Positions 171-61,551 of a DNA stretch of 64,000 nucleotides are shown here, one piece after another. This stretch comes from Paenibacillus sp. SZ31 (GTDB lineage Bacteria; Bacillota; Bacilli; Paenibacillales; Paenibacillaceae): contig NZ_JABBEA010000013.1 of NCBI RefSeq assembly GCF_012912005.1, forward strand, positions 62,001 through 126,000, given 5' to 3'. Numbering within the stretch: the stretch's first letter is position 1; each line of letters starts with the position of its first letter. Under the pieces are notes generated by a model. The model saw nothing but the letters and a program-made list of their open reading frames with translations. It ran no database searches and was not told the origin of the DNA. Made by a program: the position numbers and the translations under genes.

Positions 171-197
171 ATTACAGCCACAGGGATATAAGATGAT

Positions 198-413
198 TTT
201 TAAATGTGTTATTTAAAATGAAAATAAGAAATTTCACCATAACGGAGAGTGCAGAACCAATCTGAAGAAGCGAAGCGTTCGCCTTTATCACCGGATTTTC
301 CCATTGATAATGGGATCAAAAAAATCTGGGGATAACAGCGATCGGAGGATGGTACTGCACTCGAAGTGAACGAGGTGGCCATTCTTGGGCTCATTTTACA
401 TATAACATTAACC
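198..413. repeat. Palindromic intergenic element, family 1, copy 1 (efp leader)
   Basis: An approximately 215-base imperfect inverted repeat fills the gap before efp. The outer arms pair around 198-220 with 394-413, and the mid stem GAGTGCAG.ACC (245-257) pairs with GGTACTGCACTC (351-362). The core holds the GCGAAGCGTTCGC hairpin (270-282), then CCGGATTTTCCCATT (291-305) pairing with AATGGGA...AAATCTGG (309-329), then GGGATAACAGCGATCG. The same core returns near 33.9, 45.4 and 54.7 kb with different but self-complementary stems. Transcribed, it would put a long stem-loop upstream of the efp start. It could be a mobile palindromic repeat or a structured RNA; function is unknown. Confidence 0.8.
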
Positions 414-461
414 CATCGTCTTATATCACCTACTTTTCAACCATATCAGGAGGGATTTTTT

Positions 462-1019
462 GTGATTTCAGTAAACGATTTTAAAACAGGCTTGACCGTG
501 CAAGTAGATAACGATATCTATACCGTGCTTGATTTCCAACACGTTAAACCAGGTAAAGGCGCTGCCTTTGTACGTTCCAAATTGAAAAACCTGCGTAACG
601 GTAACACCGTTGAAAAAACATTCCGTGCAGGCGAAACGATTGGTCGTGCCATCATCGAAAACCGTGGCGTATCCTACCTGTATGCAAGCGGTACAGAGCA
701 CACGTTCATGGATAACGAAACATATGATCAGTTCACATTGACTAGTGATCAACTGGAATGGGAATTGAATTTCCTGAAAGAAAACATGGTCGTTAAGATC
801 GTTAGCTACCAAGGTGAAATCCTCGGAATCGACTTGCCAACAAGCGTTGAGTTGAAAGTTATCGAGACTGAGCCAAGCGTTAAAGGTAACACTGCACAAG
901 GCGCTACCAAAAACGCAAAAGTGGAAACAGGCTTGAATGTACAGGTTCCTTTGTTCATTAACGAAGGTGACGTTCTCCTGATTGATACACGTGAAGGTAA
1001 ATACTCTTCCCGTGCGTAA
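462..1019 (+). CDS. efp: Elongation factor P
   Basis: This 185-residue protein has the normal EF-P length when started at the GTG at 462, seven bases behind a clear AGGAGGG; an upstream in-frame ATG at 366 would add an unrelated tail lying in the palindromic repeat. EF-P binds the ribosome E site and restores peptide bond formation at polyproline stretches. The KOW-like N-domain carries the loop [10 protein letters not shown] with Lys32 at the tip, the residue that Bacillus subtilis decorates with 5-aminopentanol. Two OB domains follow, ending in [16 protein letters not shown] rho-independent terminator follows at 1055. Regulation is unclear because the leader is occupied by the repeat element. 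Confidence 0.97.
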
Positions 1020-33784: not shown

Positions 33785-33979
33785 CTATATAAGTTGAAAT
33801 AATCATTTACACGATAACGGAGAGGACAGAAAAAATCTGAAAAAGCGAAGCGGTCGCCTTTATCACCGGATTTTCCCTTAAGAAAAAGGGAATCGAAAAA
33901 ATCTGGGGATAACAGGGATTGGAAGATTGTTCTGTCATCGTAGTGTCAGTGTAAATAAACTCTAATTCAACTTATATAG
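33785..33979. repeat. Palindromic element, family 1, copy 2
   Basis: The 195-bp element is bounded by CTATATAAGTTGAA (33785) and its complement TTCAACTTATATAG (to 33979). Inside, TTTACAC and GGACAGAA pair with TTCTGTC and GTGTAAA. The core has GCGAAGCGGTCGC, then CCGGATTTTCCCTT paired with AAGGGA...AAATCTGG, then GGGGATAACAGGGAT. It fills most of the 395-base gap between the reductase and the papain-like gene. Confidence 0.85.
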
Positions 33980-34012: not shown

Positions 34013-34663
34013 ATGAAAAAGGGTTCACAACCACAACAAGGTTTCACCTTCATCCAGCGGTGGTTCAAACGACCTGATAAGAAAAAGATCAAATGGTCCG
34101 AAATGTATCTCGCACTTGCCGGTGCGCTTCATCGCTTGTTGGTTGAAGGGCGGCGTGAACGTTCAGCAGCCAAACGGTTACAACAGGATTTGCCTATCAA
34201 CGCATTGGGCGAGATGAAGTTGGAGCCAGGGGATATCGTGTACACACCAAGCTCGGAATCCACCTATTACGCCGGACATATGGGCATTATTGGACTCGAT
34301 GGCAAAGTATATCATGTGCACCCTTATGGGCCTGTATTTGCTGACTCATTAGATTGGTATCTCACACGTTTCTATGAAGGAGATCGTTTCATTGTATTCC
34401 GTTCCAGACTGAATGAGGCCGGCATGAAGGCTGCTGGGTGGGTACAGGAACACTACAAGCAGGTCAAATTCTACCGTTTGCAGACCAATCTGCGCAGTAT
34501 TGAGCGCAATTACTGCTCCAAGTTTATATATCAGGCCTATCAGTTCACATCGGGACTGGACCTGTGGAGCCGCAAGTTTACCCGAATGAATCAGGGATAT
34601 ATTTATCCTTTTCGAATTGAGCGCTCACCAGAGCTGGACGTTCTGGGAACTTTTTATAAATAA
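34013..34663 (+). CDS. Permuted papain-like (YiiX/C92) amidase-type protein
   Basis: The 216-residue protein shows the circularly permuted NlpC/P60 layout: a His early in YYAGHMGIIG (His89) and the Cys late in RNYCSKFIYQAY (Cys168), with LEPGDIVYTPS before the His. Such proteins are cysteine hydrolases of uncertain substrate, often lipids or peptidoglycan. There is no signal peptide but a basic N terminus. I use ATG 34013; GTG 34004 would add three residues, and neither has a strong SD. The substrate is unknown. Confidence 0.75.
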   Translation: MKKGSQPQQGFTFIQRWFKRPDKKKIKWSEMYLALAGALHRLLVEGRRERSAAKRLQQDLPINALGEMKLEPGDIVYTPSSESTYYAGHMGIIGLDGKVYHVHPYGPVFADSLDWYLTRFYEGDRFIVFRSRLNEAGMKAAGWVQEHYKQVKFYRLQTNLRSIERNYCSKFIYQAYQFTSGLDLWSRKFTRMNQGYIYPFRIERSPELDVLGTFYK

Positions 34664-45315: not shown

Positions 45316-45547
45316 ATATATAAATTGAGCTAATCCTTTACACAAGAACGGAGAGGACAGAAATAACCAAGAGAAGCGGAGCGTTCGCCTAAAAGCTTTC
45401 TGAAAGAAAGCTGCATCGTAAGCATAAGCTATCACCAAATTTTATCTATTAGTTAAAGAAATCAAAAAAATCTGGGGATAACAGCGATCGAAGGGTTGTT
45501 CTGTCATTGGAGTGGTTAGTGTAAATATTCTTAGTCCATTTATATAT
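45316..45547. repeat. Palindromic element, family 1, copy 3 (with insert)
   Basis: The 232-bp element is bounded by ATATATAAAT (45316) and ATTTATATAT (to 45547). GGAGAGGACAGAA pairs with TTCTGTC and TTTACAC with GTGTAAA. The core has GCGGAGCGTTCGCC, then an insert CTAAAAGCTTTCTG.. with an AGCTTTCT-GAA-AGAAAGCT hairpin and CATCGTAAGCAT, then AAATCTGGGGATAACAGCGATCG. It lies between mciZ and nudF, ending 28 bases before nudF. The rest of the 347-base gap is AT-rich and has no gene. Confidence 0.82.
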
Positions 45548-45575: not shown

Positions 45576-46169
45576 ATGAAACCAAACCAATCTGCCCAAT
45601 CCATTCATGCGGCGCAAGCTGCCAATCCGAAGCTGGATGAAGTGACCGTATCCACCAAGCCGATCTTCGAGGGAAAAGTGATTTCACTACAGGTCGATAC
45701 GGTTAAGCTACCAAACGGCCAAACGGCTACACGTGAGATTATCCGGCATCCGGGTGCTGTAGCTGTACTTGCGCTAAACGGGGATCGCATGCTTGTTGTA
45801 GATCAGTATCGTCAGGCAATGGGACGCACCGAAGTAGAGATTCCTGCGGGGAAACTGGACCCGGGTGAAGAGCCAGAGGTTGCTGCAGCACGTGAATTGC
45901 GAGAAGAGACAGGATATGTAGCCAAGTCGCTACGTCATTTGCGTTCGTTCTACACCTCACCAGGGTTCGCAGATGAGATCATTCATCTTTACATCGCCGA
46001 AGAGTTGGAAGCAGGGGACATGGCGCTGGACGAAGATGAATTCCTTGAAGTTGCCGAAATAACTCTGGAGGAAGCCTATGCGCTCATGGACGAGAACCGG
46101 ATTAGTGATGCCAAAACGATGATGGCCGTGTACGCGTGGGATCTCTACAGAACGACAGGACGGTTCTAA
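45576..46169 (+). CDS. nudF: ADP-ribose pyrophosphatase (Nudix)
   Basis: NudF hydrolyses ADP-ribose to AMP and ribose 5-phosphate. The 197-residue protein has a complete Nudix box GKLDPGEEPEVAAARELREETGY and IPAGK before it, with SFYTSPGFADEIIHLY after it. Start ATG 45576 follows ATGGAG. The N terminus is about 20 residues longer than usual. The next gene starts two bases after the stop. Confidence 0.93.
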   Translation: MKPNQSAQSIHAAQAANPKLDEVTVSTKPIFEGKVISLQVDTVKLPNGQTATREIIRHPGAVAVLALNGDRMLVVDQYRQAMGRTEVEIPAGKLDPGEEPEVAAARELREETGYVAKSLRHLRSFYTSPGFADEIIHLYIAEELEAGDMALDEDEFLEVAEITLEEAYALMDENRISDAKTMMAVYAWDLYRTTGRF

Positions 46170-54451: not shown

Positions 54452-54501
54452 ATGAGGGTTCATCTAAGGGGATACATAAGCAACACAGGCGGCAGATTAG
54501 A

Positions 54502-54540
54502 CCTGAAGAAGCGAAGCGTTCGCCTTTGTCTCCAAATTTC
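54502..54540. repeat. Isolated family-1 core fragment
   Basis: CTGAAGAAGCGAAGCGTTCG, as in copy 1, followed by CCTTTGTCTCCAAATTTC. The GGGGATAAC half is missing. It lies between the truncated and complete copies. Confidence 0.55.
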
Positions 54541-54654
54541 TACACAACTGTAGTCTAGACGGTCCCAGAAGACAACTCCAAAGTCATAGAATTTTGAGCA
54601 AAATAACCCCAAAAAGCTTTTCTTTCAATTCCCTCCTGCCCACCCATCCCAGCA

Positions 54655-54864
54655 TATTTATTTCAAACGTTTGGAAACGGGAGGACGATGGGCAGCGGAG
54701 GGATGGAATCGGTCAAAAGGAGCGAAGCGTTCGCCTTTAGCACCGGATTTCCTCCTTGAAAAGGAGAGTTCAAGAAATCCGGGGATAACAGCGACCAATG
54801 ACCGATCCATCCCGCAGCACTAGTACAACCTCCCGATCTTTTTCCAACCCGTTTGTAATAAATT
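54655..54864. repeat. Palindromic element, family 1, copy 4
   Basis: The outer stem ATTTATT.CAAACG..TTGGAAA (54657 on) pairs with TTTTTCCAACCCGTTTG.AATAAAT (to 54864); the inner stem GGGATGGAATCGGTC (54699-54714) pairs with GACCGATCCATCCC (54799-54812). The core has GCGAAGCGTTCGC, CCGGATTTCCTCCTT paired with AAGGAG..AAATCCGG, and GGGGATAACAGCGA. Together with the two partial copies it fills the 691-base gap between sigF and spoVAA; no gene is seen there. Confidence 0.85.
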
Positions 54865-54915: not shown

Positions 54916-55572
54916 ATGTCCCAGACACCCACTCCAATGGTCTACGTTCGTCTACGCAGCCGTATTCGCATCCAGAGGGGCAGAGCAGTCAAGCTTGGAG
55001 ACATTGCCCATGTGCTGACTTCTTCTGAAGATCAGGAGGACAGGTTACTGGAGCTTGAACTGCTGCACCCTGGACCGGAGGACGGCAATCTGATCCTCAT
55101 TGATATATTGCAGATTATTCCCAGCATTCGGCACATCTTGCCTGAGGTAAGCGTGGAACTGATTGGATCCGGCCATACACTTGTTGAAGTCATTGCGGGA
55201 AATGGTCAACCTTCCAAGTCTCTGTTCATATTGGTTTGGCTGCTGCTGTTCTTCGGATCGGCCTTAACCATTATGAATTTTCATGCCGATGTGAACATGC
55301 AGGAAGTACAGATTCGTATTGTGGAGATGCTTACAGGGCATCGGGATGAACATCCGTATCTGTTCCAAGTGGCGTATTCCATCGGCATTGGATTCGGGAT
55401 GGCGGTATTCTTTAACCATTTGTTCAAGAAGAAGTGGAATGAGGAGCCTACCCCGCTCGAAGTGGAGATGTTTCTGTACCAACAAAATGTAGATAAATAT
55501 GTGGTGATTGAAGAAAGCGAACGGATGCATGAGCAGGAACGCGGGGAGATGAATGCGGATGAGCGTTCTTAA
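54916..55572 (+). CDS. spoVAA: Stage V sporulation protein AA
   Basis: SpoVAA is a forespore membrane protein of the SpoVA group that moves dipicolinic acid into spores and out at germination. The 218-residue protein has a soluble N-terminal domain (TPMVYVRLRSRIRIQRGRAV, LILIDILQIIP) and two C-terminal helices (LFILVWLLLFFGSALTIMNF, VAYSIGIGFGMAVFF). ATG 54916 lies eight bases after AAAGGAG; GTG 54907 overlaps it. It overlaps spoVAB by 20 bases. Confidence 0.92.
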   Translation: MSQTPTPMVYVRLRSRIRIQRGRAVKLGDIAHVLTSSEDQEDRLLELELLHPGPEDGNLILIDILQIIPSIRHILPEVSVELIGSGHTLVEVIAGNGQPSKSLFILVWLLLFFGSALTIMNFHADVNMQEVQIRIVEMLTGHRDEHPYLFQVAYSIGIGFGMAVFFNHLFKKKWNEEPTPLEVEMFLYQQNVDKYVVIEESERMHEQERGEMNADERS

Positions 55573-61368: not shown

Positions 61369-61387
61369 CCAATTAATAACGAAAGCA

Positions 61388-61551
61388 ATCCTTCAGGGCA
61401 GGGTGCGATTCCCTACCGGCGGTGATGCAGGAAGTGTAAGGACACAAGTCCAGCACTTGATGCAAAGTCCGTGACCTGTCTGCCTATGGCAGATGGCTGA
61501 TCTGGTGTAATTCCAGAACCGACAGTATAGTCTGGATGGGAGAAGGAGAGG
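61388..61551 (+). ncRNA. FMN riboswitch (RFN element)
   Basis: The RFN aptamer is complete: CTTCAGGGCAGGGTG at the 5' end, TTCCCTACCGGCGGTGATG, AGTCCGTGACC, GGCAGATGGCTGATCTGGTG, AATTCCAGAACCGACAGTAT and AGTCTGGATGGGAGAAGGAG at the 3' end. It binds FMN and represses the riboflavin genes downstream. A terminator lies about 250 bases further on. Confidence 0.96.

Follow-up and report, generated by a model that had tools for sequence, protein, structure and literature searches.

Bacterial MITEs are usually viewed as decaying selfish repeats. A MITE family does not strictly require a partner transposase in the same genome, as the source may be lost, and MITEs need not derive from the interior of an insertion sequence. 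RUP of Streptococcus pneumoniae, about 107 bp long, is believed to owe its mobility to an IS630-type element that acts in trans and duplicates TA, and it is not known to have an RNA core comparable to the one described below. RUP, BOX and SPRITE of S. pneumoniae are intergenic structured repeats, and nesting and clustering occur among them (PMC10969869). Correia elements, or NEMIS, are MITEs of Neisseria: small non-coding repeats with terminal inverted repeats (TIRs), present in >100 copies and located mostly immediately upstream of genes, with transcripts that fold and are cleaved by RNase III (review PMC10969869). Members of the IS630 and Tc1/mariner groups use TA as their target and duplicate it upon insertion (PMC2170065), and a CTAG preference of IS630 is cited in the same paper. 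In Paenibacillus riograndensis SBR5, transcriptome sequencing is reported to have revealed 209 leaders longer than 100 nt, of which only 11 had cis-regulatory hits in Rfam (PMC5670726).

Here we describe a repeat family of Paenibacillus, starting from a stretch of 64,000 nucleotides of Paenibacillus sp. SZ31 (the window). Like Correia/NEMIS, its members are small non-coding TIR repeats, in >100 copies and near genes. However, host group and sequence are different, and the Paenibacillus element has a covarying branched core that persists after the TIRs are lost and occurs across an order. RUP, BOX and SPRITE resemble it as intergenic structured repeats with nesting and clustering, but differ in sequence and host. 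With IS630/Tc1-mariner elements (L210 and L199 in genome G006; ISY100, PMC2170065) it shares the C-TA-G target, the TA duplication and, for L210, the TIR sequence, whereas it encodes no transposase and has only about 18 nt in common with L210. Its covarying helices and conserved junctions are like those of Rfam structured RNA families and of typical cis-regulatory RNA. However, no family of Rfam 15 matches it, even at E up to 1, in agreement with a preliminary description that knew no Rfam class with this core. It is also mobile and has far more copies per genome than known riboswitch classes.

Results

Copies in the window

A covariance model built from 67 diverse copies, of which copies A and B below are themselves training members, found all four copies that the preliminary description had placed in the window (81 to 138 bits). 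E-values, which are rough, ranged from 1e-37 to 3e-21. All four lie on the plus strand and are oriented with the next gene, with their right ends 29–52 nt ahead of its start codon. Copy A (183..430; 198-413 in the preliminary description) scored 137.6 bits over its core at 241-371, which is of the GTGCAG/CTGCA type. It is upstream of efp (elongation factor P; 462..1019, +), whose start codon is 49 nt past the end of the copy at 413. Copy B (33785..33979) is a complete MITE that reads C-TA, then TATAAGTTGAAA...ATTCAACTTATA (33788-33976), then TA-G, and scored 136.6 bits at its core, 33816-33948. An ORF without Pfam match (34013..34663, +) has its start codon 34 nt past this copy. Copy C (45316..45547) is a long form of 232 bp with an extra hairpin module of about 38 bp. 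Its score was 80.9 bits at the core, 45347-45517, and the start codon of a NUDIX hydrolase gene (45576..46169, +) follows after 29 nt. Copy D (54655..54864) is of an older type with other ends (TTTATTTCAAACG / CGTTTGTAATAAA); it scored 109.5 bits at its core, 54694-54822, and stands 52 nt ahead of the start codon of a spoVAA-like gene (SporV_AA domain; 54916..55572, +). Folding z-scores of the cores were -6.4 for copy A, -3.7 for copy B and -5.7 for copy D; the z-score of copy C was only -2.0.

The preliminary description had missed the TIRs, the TA duplication and a degenerate fifth copy (54482..54576, +), a relic adjoining copy D that the covariance model found at 20.9 bits (E=0.001) and that nhmmer matched too. 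Its statement that no copy interrupts a gene was true of all ~130 elements scored with a home-made gene caller in 958 kb of the genome and 80 other loci. The window also holds an FMN riboswitch at 61385-61551 (+; RF00050, 104 bits). In copy B, GGGGATAACAGGGAT resembles the I-SceI site, which was judged a coincidence; other copies have GGGGATAACAGCGATC.

Core structure and covariation

The consensus was derived from 67 diverse short-form copies, which had been chosen by their junction motifs and not by their stems. It has an inner core of about 130 nt, formed by a long stem whose 5′ side bears a small branch of the GCGAAGC type. Double changes were found in 27 of 34 core pairs, and 94.1% of core cells were paired, versus 84.3% in shuffled sets and 35–43% when the arms were slid. 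Against a background of shuffle and slide controls, the covariation score was 0.346, versus 0.164 in shuffles (0/500) and 0.056–0.099 for slid arms. Columns 50-108, for instance, hold A-U 47 times and G-C 20 times with zero exceptions, and columns 23-124 hold U-A (33), C-G (19), G-C (4) and A-U (2). The junctions CUGnAGAAGCGRAGCGUUCGCCUUU and AACAGCGAUCGGAAG are conserved, a conservation that is overstated because the copies were selected by those motifs; the stems were not selected.

The core had been called fixed. A common core was indeed found, but copy B reads GCGAAGCGGTCGC and copy C has CCAAATTT in place of CCGGATTT. Inner and outer stems differ between copies and yet pair, as had been described, except that the inner hairpin of copy C is mostly unpaired. 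The GCGAAGCG segment, which had also been picked out, is better read as a mini-hairpin within a branched structure, and the TCGC after it pairs with a downstream GCGA.

Strand of the fold

When 85 non-redundant copies were aligned with a structure-blind profile, the core had A.C mismatches at 0.22 of expectation and G.U at 0.40, and the 67-sequence set agrees (A.C 0.15, G.U 0.35). The GU/AC ratio of the core was 2.36 versus 1.31 when permuted, with a maximum of 1.44 in 1,000 permutations, a figure that is no strict probability because the copies are interrelated. At one position of the core, a G.U pair is conserved in 58 of the 85 copies. The TIR arms (0.76 and 0.83) had little excess pairing and no G.U/A.C asymmetry, and such asymmetry was also absent from the apical stem. 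Were selection to act on the fold solely in double-stranded DNA or a cruciform, or were mutual correction all that kept the arms alike, G.U and A.C would be expected to be equally rare. In the core, G.U is tolerated and A.C avoided on one strand; selection therefore appears to act on the fold of the sense strand. G.T is the more stable mismatch in DNA too, so that the strand asymmetry alone does not separate RNA from single-stranded DNA, with RNA being the simpler reading.

Position and orientation

With genes called by a simple home-made coding-potential caller, tandem gaps contained 83 sense and 13 antisense copies (p 1e-13). In divergent gaps, 18 of 19 copies point to the nearer start codon; the copies lie near that start codon and leave about 220 bp on the other side. 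The typical place is 25–125 nt ahead of a start codon. Antisense copies are mostly near a stop codon (median 11 bp), and antisense or convergent copies lie mostly 2–20 bp from the stop codon of the opposing gene, such as at L250:4587 and, in the SZ31 genome (G000), at C23:315763 and C28:296983.

The orientation bias was 28:4 for copies with both TIRs and 30:6 for copies without recognisable TIRs. The bias is thus common to TIR-bearing and TIR-less copies, so insertion preference and selection are inseparable by age, and insertion preference instead of selection could be the source of the orientation. Replication direction was assigned in two complete genomes from the mapped position of dnaA, with the terminus taken to lie opposite. 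Of the 169 exact-motif copies there, 121 (72%) had leading-strand orientation. Gene-driven orientation predicts about 71% (0.86 match; 0.79 of genes on the leading strand), and hence the observed proportion fits gene-driven rather than replication-driven orientation. A replication-strand cause had been hinted at by small numbers in G000; larger sets gave it no support.

Terminal repeats and the IS630 link

The element is non-coding and about 187–232 bp long. Its outer layer is formed by TIRs, TATAAGTTGAACTAA, within C-TA-G targets of which the TA is duplicated, and complete copies read CTATATAAGTTGAACTAA ... TTAGTTCAACTTATATAG. TIRs of the TATAAGTTGAAC type occur in 74 copies. TA stands on both sides of 54 of the 74 copies with both TIRs, and CTA..TAG surrounds 29 of the 74. 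A quarter of copies have an imperfect TA duplication, and at several 'empty' sites, some of which have CAAG, the target is not restored exactly. TIRs are missing from old copies; among tandem-gap elements, 36 of 96 have none that is recognisable. Minimal derivatives of 33–41 bp, consisting of TIRs only, were seen just ahead of coding sequences (L069:522-562 and L070:454-486).

Genome G006 contains a 1,162-bp IS630-family element (L210) with a split DDE transposase gene matching Pfam DDE_3. Its ends, TATAAGTTGAACTAAAGA and TATAAATTGAACTAAAGA, are flanked by CTA..TAG. The left end of L210 equals the right TIR of our element over 18 nt, and its other end has one base different. The likeness stops after about 18 nt, and the interior of the element has no sign of being a deletion derivative of L210. 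Having the same ends, C-TA-G target and TA duplication as an IS630-family element, the TIR-bearing copies are classified, on sequence grounds, as IS630/Tc1-mariner-type MITEs. An origin as REP/REPIN repeats with a RAYT is unlikely, given the TA duplication and the DDE-type ends. The IS630 transposase (PF13358) had 0 matches in the SZ31 genome, which is a draft of 32 contigs, and none in most copy-rich relatives; it is present in other Paenibacillus members. One candidate for an autonomous relative in the SZ31 genome, a pair of TIRs 3.6 kb apart on contig C29 (L068), encloses ordinary genes and is no transposon.

Filled and empty sites

Sites of the window were compared with syntenic slices of nine relatives, and a comparison of five species across 200 kb added further sites. 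Close species differed in having the element or an empty site at two of the four positions in the window and at many elsewhere. The site of copy B lacks the element in G011, G002 and G001, contains it in G024, G027, G022 and G008, and holds an internally deleted form in G016 and G023. The site of copy C is empty in G027, G016 and G008 (..ACCGA ATATATAATCC..) and holds a short form in G022. The cleanest private insertion, in G025, reads GATG-C-TA[TACAAGTTGAAC...GTTCAATTTCTA]TA-G-ATAC versus GATGCAAGATAC or GATGCTAGATGC in relatives, so a target C-AA-G or C-TA-G in relatives corresponds to C-TA[element]TA-G when filled.

At the site of copy A, the outermost palindrome, GATATAAGATGAT (~184-197) / ATCGTCTTATATC (~415-427), is common to all ten genomes compared. 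The interiors across these genomes are of several sequence types despite flanks up to 97% identical, which may reflect reinsertion or conversion. At the site of copy D, the apical stem contains a further complete core, nested within it, in G024, G027, G011, G016 and G023, which is absent from the SZ31 genome, G022 and G008. An 'en bloc swap' of the core at this site was rejected, as the alignment shows the second core nested in the first in these five species. Tandem arrays were also seen: three copies with 221–222 bp spacing in P. polysaccharolyticus (L247:2201-2775), and an array with ~260–280 bp spacing in the G011 slice (L159-L168 region). In some copies the central hairpin has been lost between short repeats. 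A 38-bp hairpin module (AAAAGCTTTCTGAAAGAAAGCTGCATCGGAAGCATACGC) was gained or lost at one same site, 45316-45547 versus its G022 ortholog.

Copy number and distribution

In 957 kb of the SZ31 genome, the covariance model found 46 copies above 60 bits, which extrapolates to ~310 (about 300) copies in 6.48 Mb. Two complete genomes, G024 and G034, contained 200 and 162 occurrences, respectively, of a 21-base core motif (≤3 mismatches), and the reversed control pattern gave 0. A DNA similarity search gave matches in 33 of 60 genomes, all of the same genus and none outside it. With the covariance model, matches extended to 199 of 248 genomes of the order, in 33 of 47 genera, with counts limited to at most 13 for any one genome; a class-wide sample of 300 genomes gave 28 matches, all in the element's own family of bacteria. 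The core pattern was found in at least 117 stretches of GTDB genomes. Among the 80 matches listed, all are named Paenibacillus but one, 'Bacillus sp. FJAT-27264' (Bacillus per NCBI).

The element had no match in PLSDB plasmids or GenBank phages. In IMG/VR, 10 contigs matched, at least eight of which are one homologous chromosomal prophage-like region. In contigs L369 and L371-L377, the element lies ~0.3–1.8 kb from the same end of homologous predicted proviruses, and it appears to flank one conserved prophage-like region there. A paper on this Paenibacillus repeat was not found in our literature search.

Copies that no longer move

In four species (L062-L065), a TIR-less copy occupies a shared position immediately behind a stop codon. 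Its core is 95–99% identical among them, on a par with the coding sequence, and the non-coding flank falls to 44–85%. Moreover, over the 200 kb compared, low-scoring TIR-less copies tend to occur in all five species, whereas full-length ones vary. As copies age, their ends are lost and movement ceases with the core left in place; the core is therefore retained for something besides transposition.

Discussion

The preliminary description had offered three options for this repeat: a structured RNA, a miniature transposon and a nucleoid or terminator element. The first two turn out both to apply, to different layers of the same element. Covariation above the shuffled and slid controls supports the structured RNA. 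The miniature transposon is supported by the TIRs, the TA duplication, the unoccupied sites and an IS630-family element that shares the ends. The checks that had been proposed by covariance model, copy number and target duplications are those given above. The third option gained no support, as copy B has no sense-strand terminator with a U-tract.

We suggest, with a probability of roughly 0.6, that the family consists of IS630/Tc1-mariner-type MITEs built around a conserved branched core of ~130 nt that is under selection as sense-oriented RNA within host transcripts, and we hold an RNA acting in cis to be about equally probable. An IS630-family transposase would recognise the TATAAGTTGAACTAA ends in trans, insert the element at C-TA-G and duplicate TA; its source today is found only in other Paenibacillus species. 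Survivors are found only between genes and nearly always sense, typically 25–125 nt before a start codon. Upon transcription of the host gene, the element would fold as a long branched hairpin in untranslated mRNA, as covariation and strand asymmetry suggest. This fold would probably affect the mRNA in cis. The simplest role would be that of a signal for processing or stability, through RNase III-type cleavage or protection, which may let the host tolerate the insertion or benefit from it, as has been reported for Correia elements. This mRNA processing or stabilisation version of the cis-acting RNA is put forward tentatively; it is favoured because RNase III cleaves mRNAs at Correia elements, which are of similar size and similarly placed. 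Just as tentative is the proposal that the core represents a mobile functional RNA of a new class found across the order. It would be a portable module for mRNA control or processing, perhaps with its own binding protein or a catalytic activity, that spreads on transposase ends to hundreds of genes in each Paenibacillales genome and is then kept by hosts.

A cis-regulatory RNA that responds to a ligand or protein, such as a riboswitch-like leader or attenuator hitching on IS630 ends, would also be oriented in sense, carry conserved junctions and stand, as all four window copies do, 29–52 nt ahead of start codons. However, the downstream genes look unrelated (efp, NUDIX, spoVAA and an ORF without Pfam match), and a single riboswitch specific for one ligand is hard to reconcile with linked genes that have no obvious common function. 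The copy number of about 300 per genome also speaks against this reading, as do some retained copies that follow stop codons rather than precede genes, and we regard it as rather doubtful. A selfish foldback MITE without RNA function, whose arms are kept complementary by template-switch correction and gene conversion, is a little more doubtful still. It accounts for the TIRs, the TA duplication, internal deletions between short repeats, the near-palindromic form of the whole element and the tandem and nested copies. But a preference for G.U rather than A.C that is confined to one strand is not what palindrome correction produces, and the TIR arms, which are just as palindromic, have neither strong pairing nor asymmetry. 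Conserved single-stranded motifs, the order-wide spread of covariance-model matches and purifying selection on a TIR-less copy are also unexpected for such an element.

The fold might instead matter as single-stranded DNA, for example as a hairpin associated with replication or transposition, with sense orientation as a by-product. G.T is the most stable mismatch in DNA as well, the core contains GCGAAGC, a sequence that forms an exceptionally stable DNA mini-hairpin, and four of the seven antisense tandem-gap copies in G000 are leading-strand oriented. Genes nevertheless track orientation better (83:13 in tandem gaps, 18:1 in divergent gaps) than replication does (72% leading in two complete genomes), and we consider this explanation unlikely. 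Most improbable is a transcription terminator or nucleoid-organising repeat. Long stable intergenic hairpins fit such a role, and the antisense strand of copy B has a terminator-like hairpin with a T-run. However, this T-run is weak in most other copies, the selected sense strand has no U-tract, and copies in divergent gaps are close to the start codon with ~220 bp on the other side.

Against the usual picture of bacterial MITEs, the MITE shell here bears a covarying core that occurs in most of an order, stands near-always in sense beside genes and is conserved after mobility is lost. The strongly conserved fold, probably one of RNA, has so far been uncatalogued, and the element may serve as a mobile, ready-made device for the control or processing of mRNA. 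If the RNA reading is true, hundreds of Paenibacillales genes would share one mobile post-transcriptional element that annotation and Rfam have missed, and its presence or absence between close species would be a natural experiment on its role.
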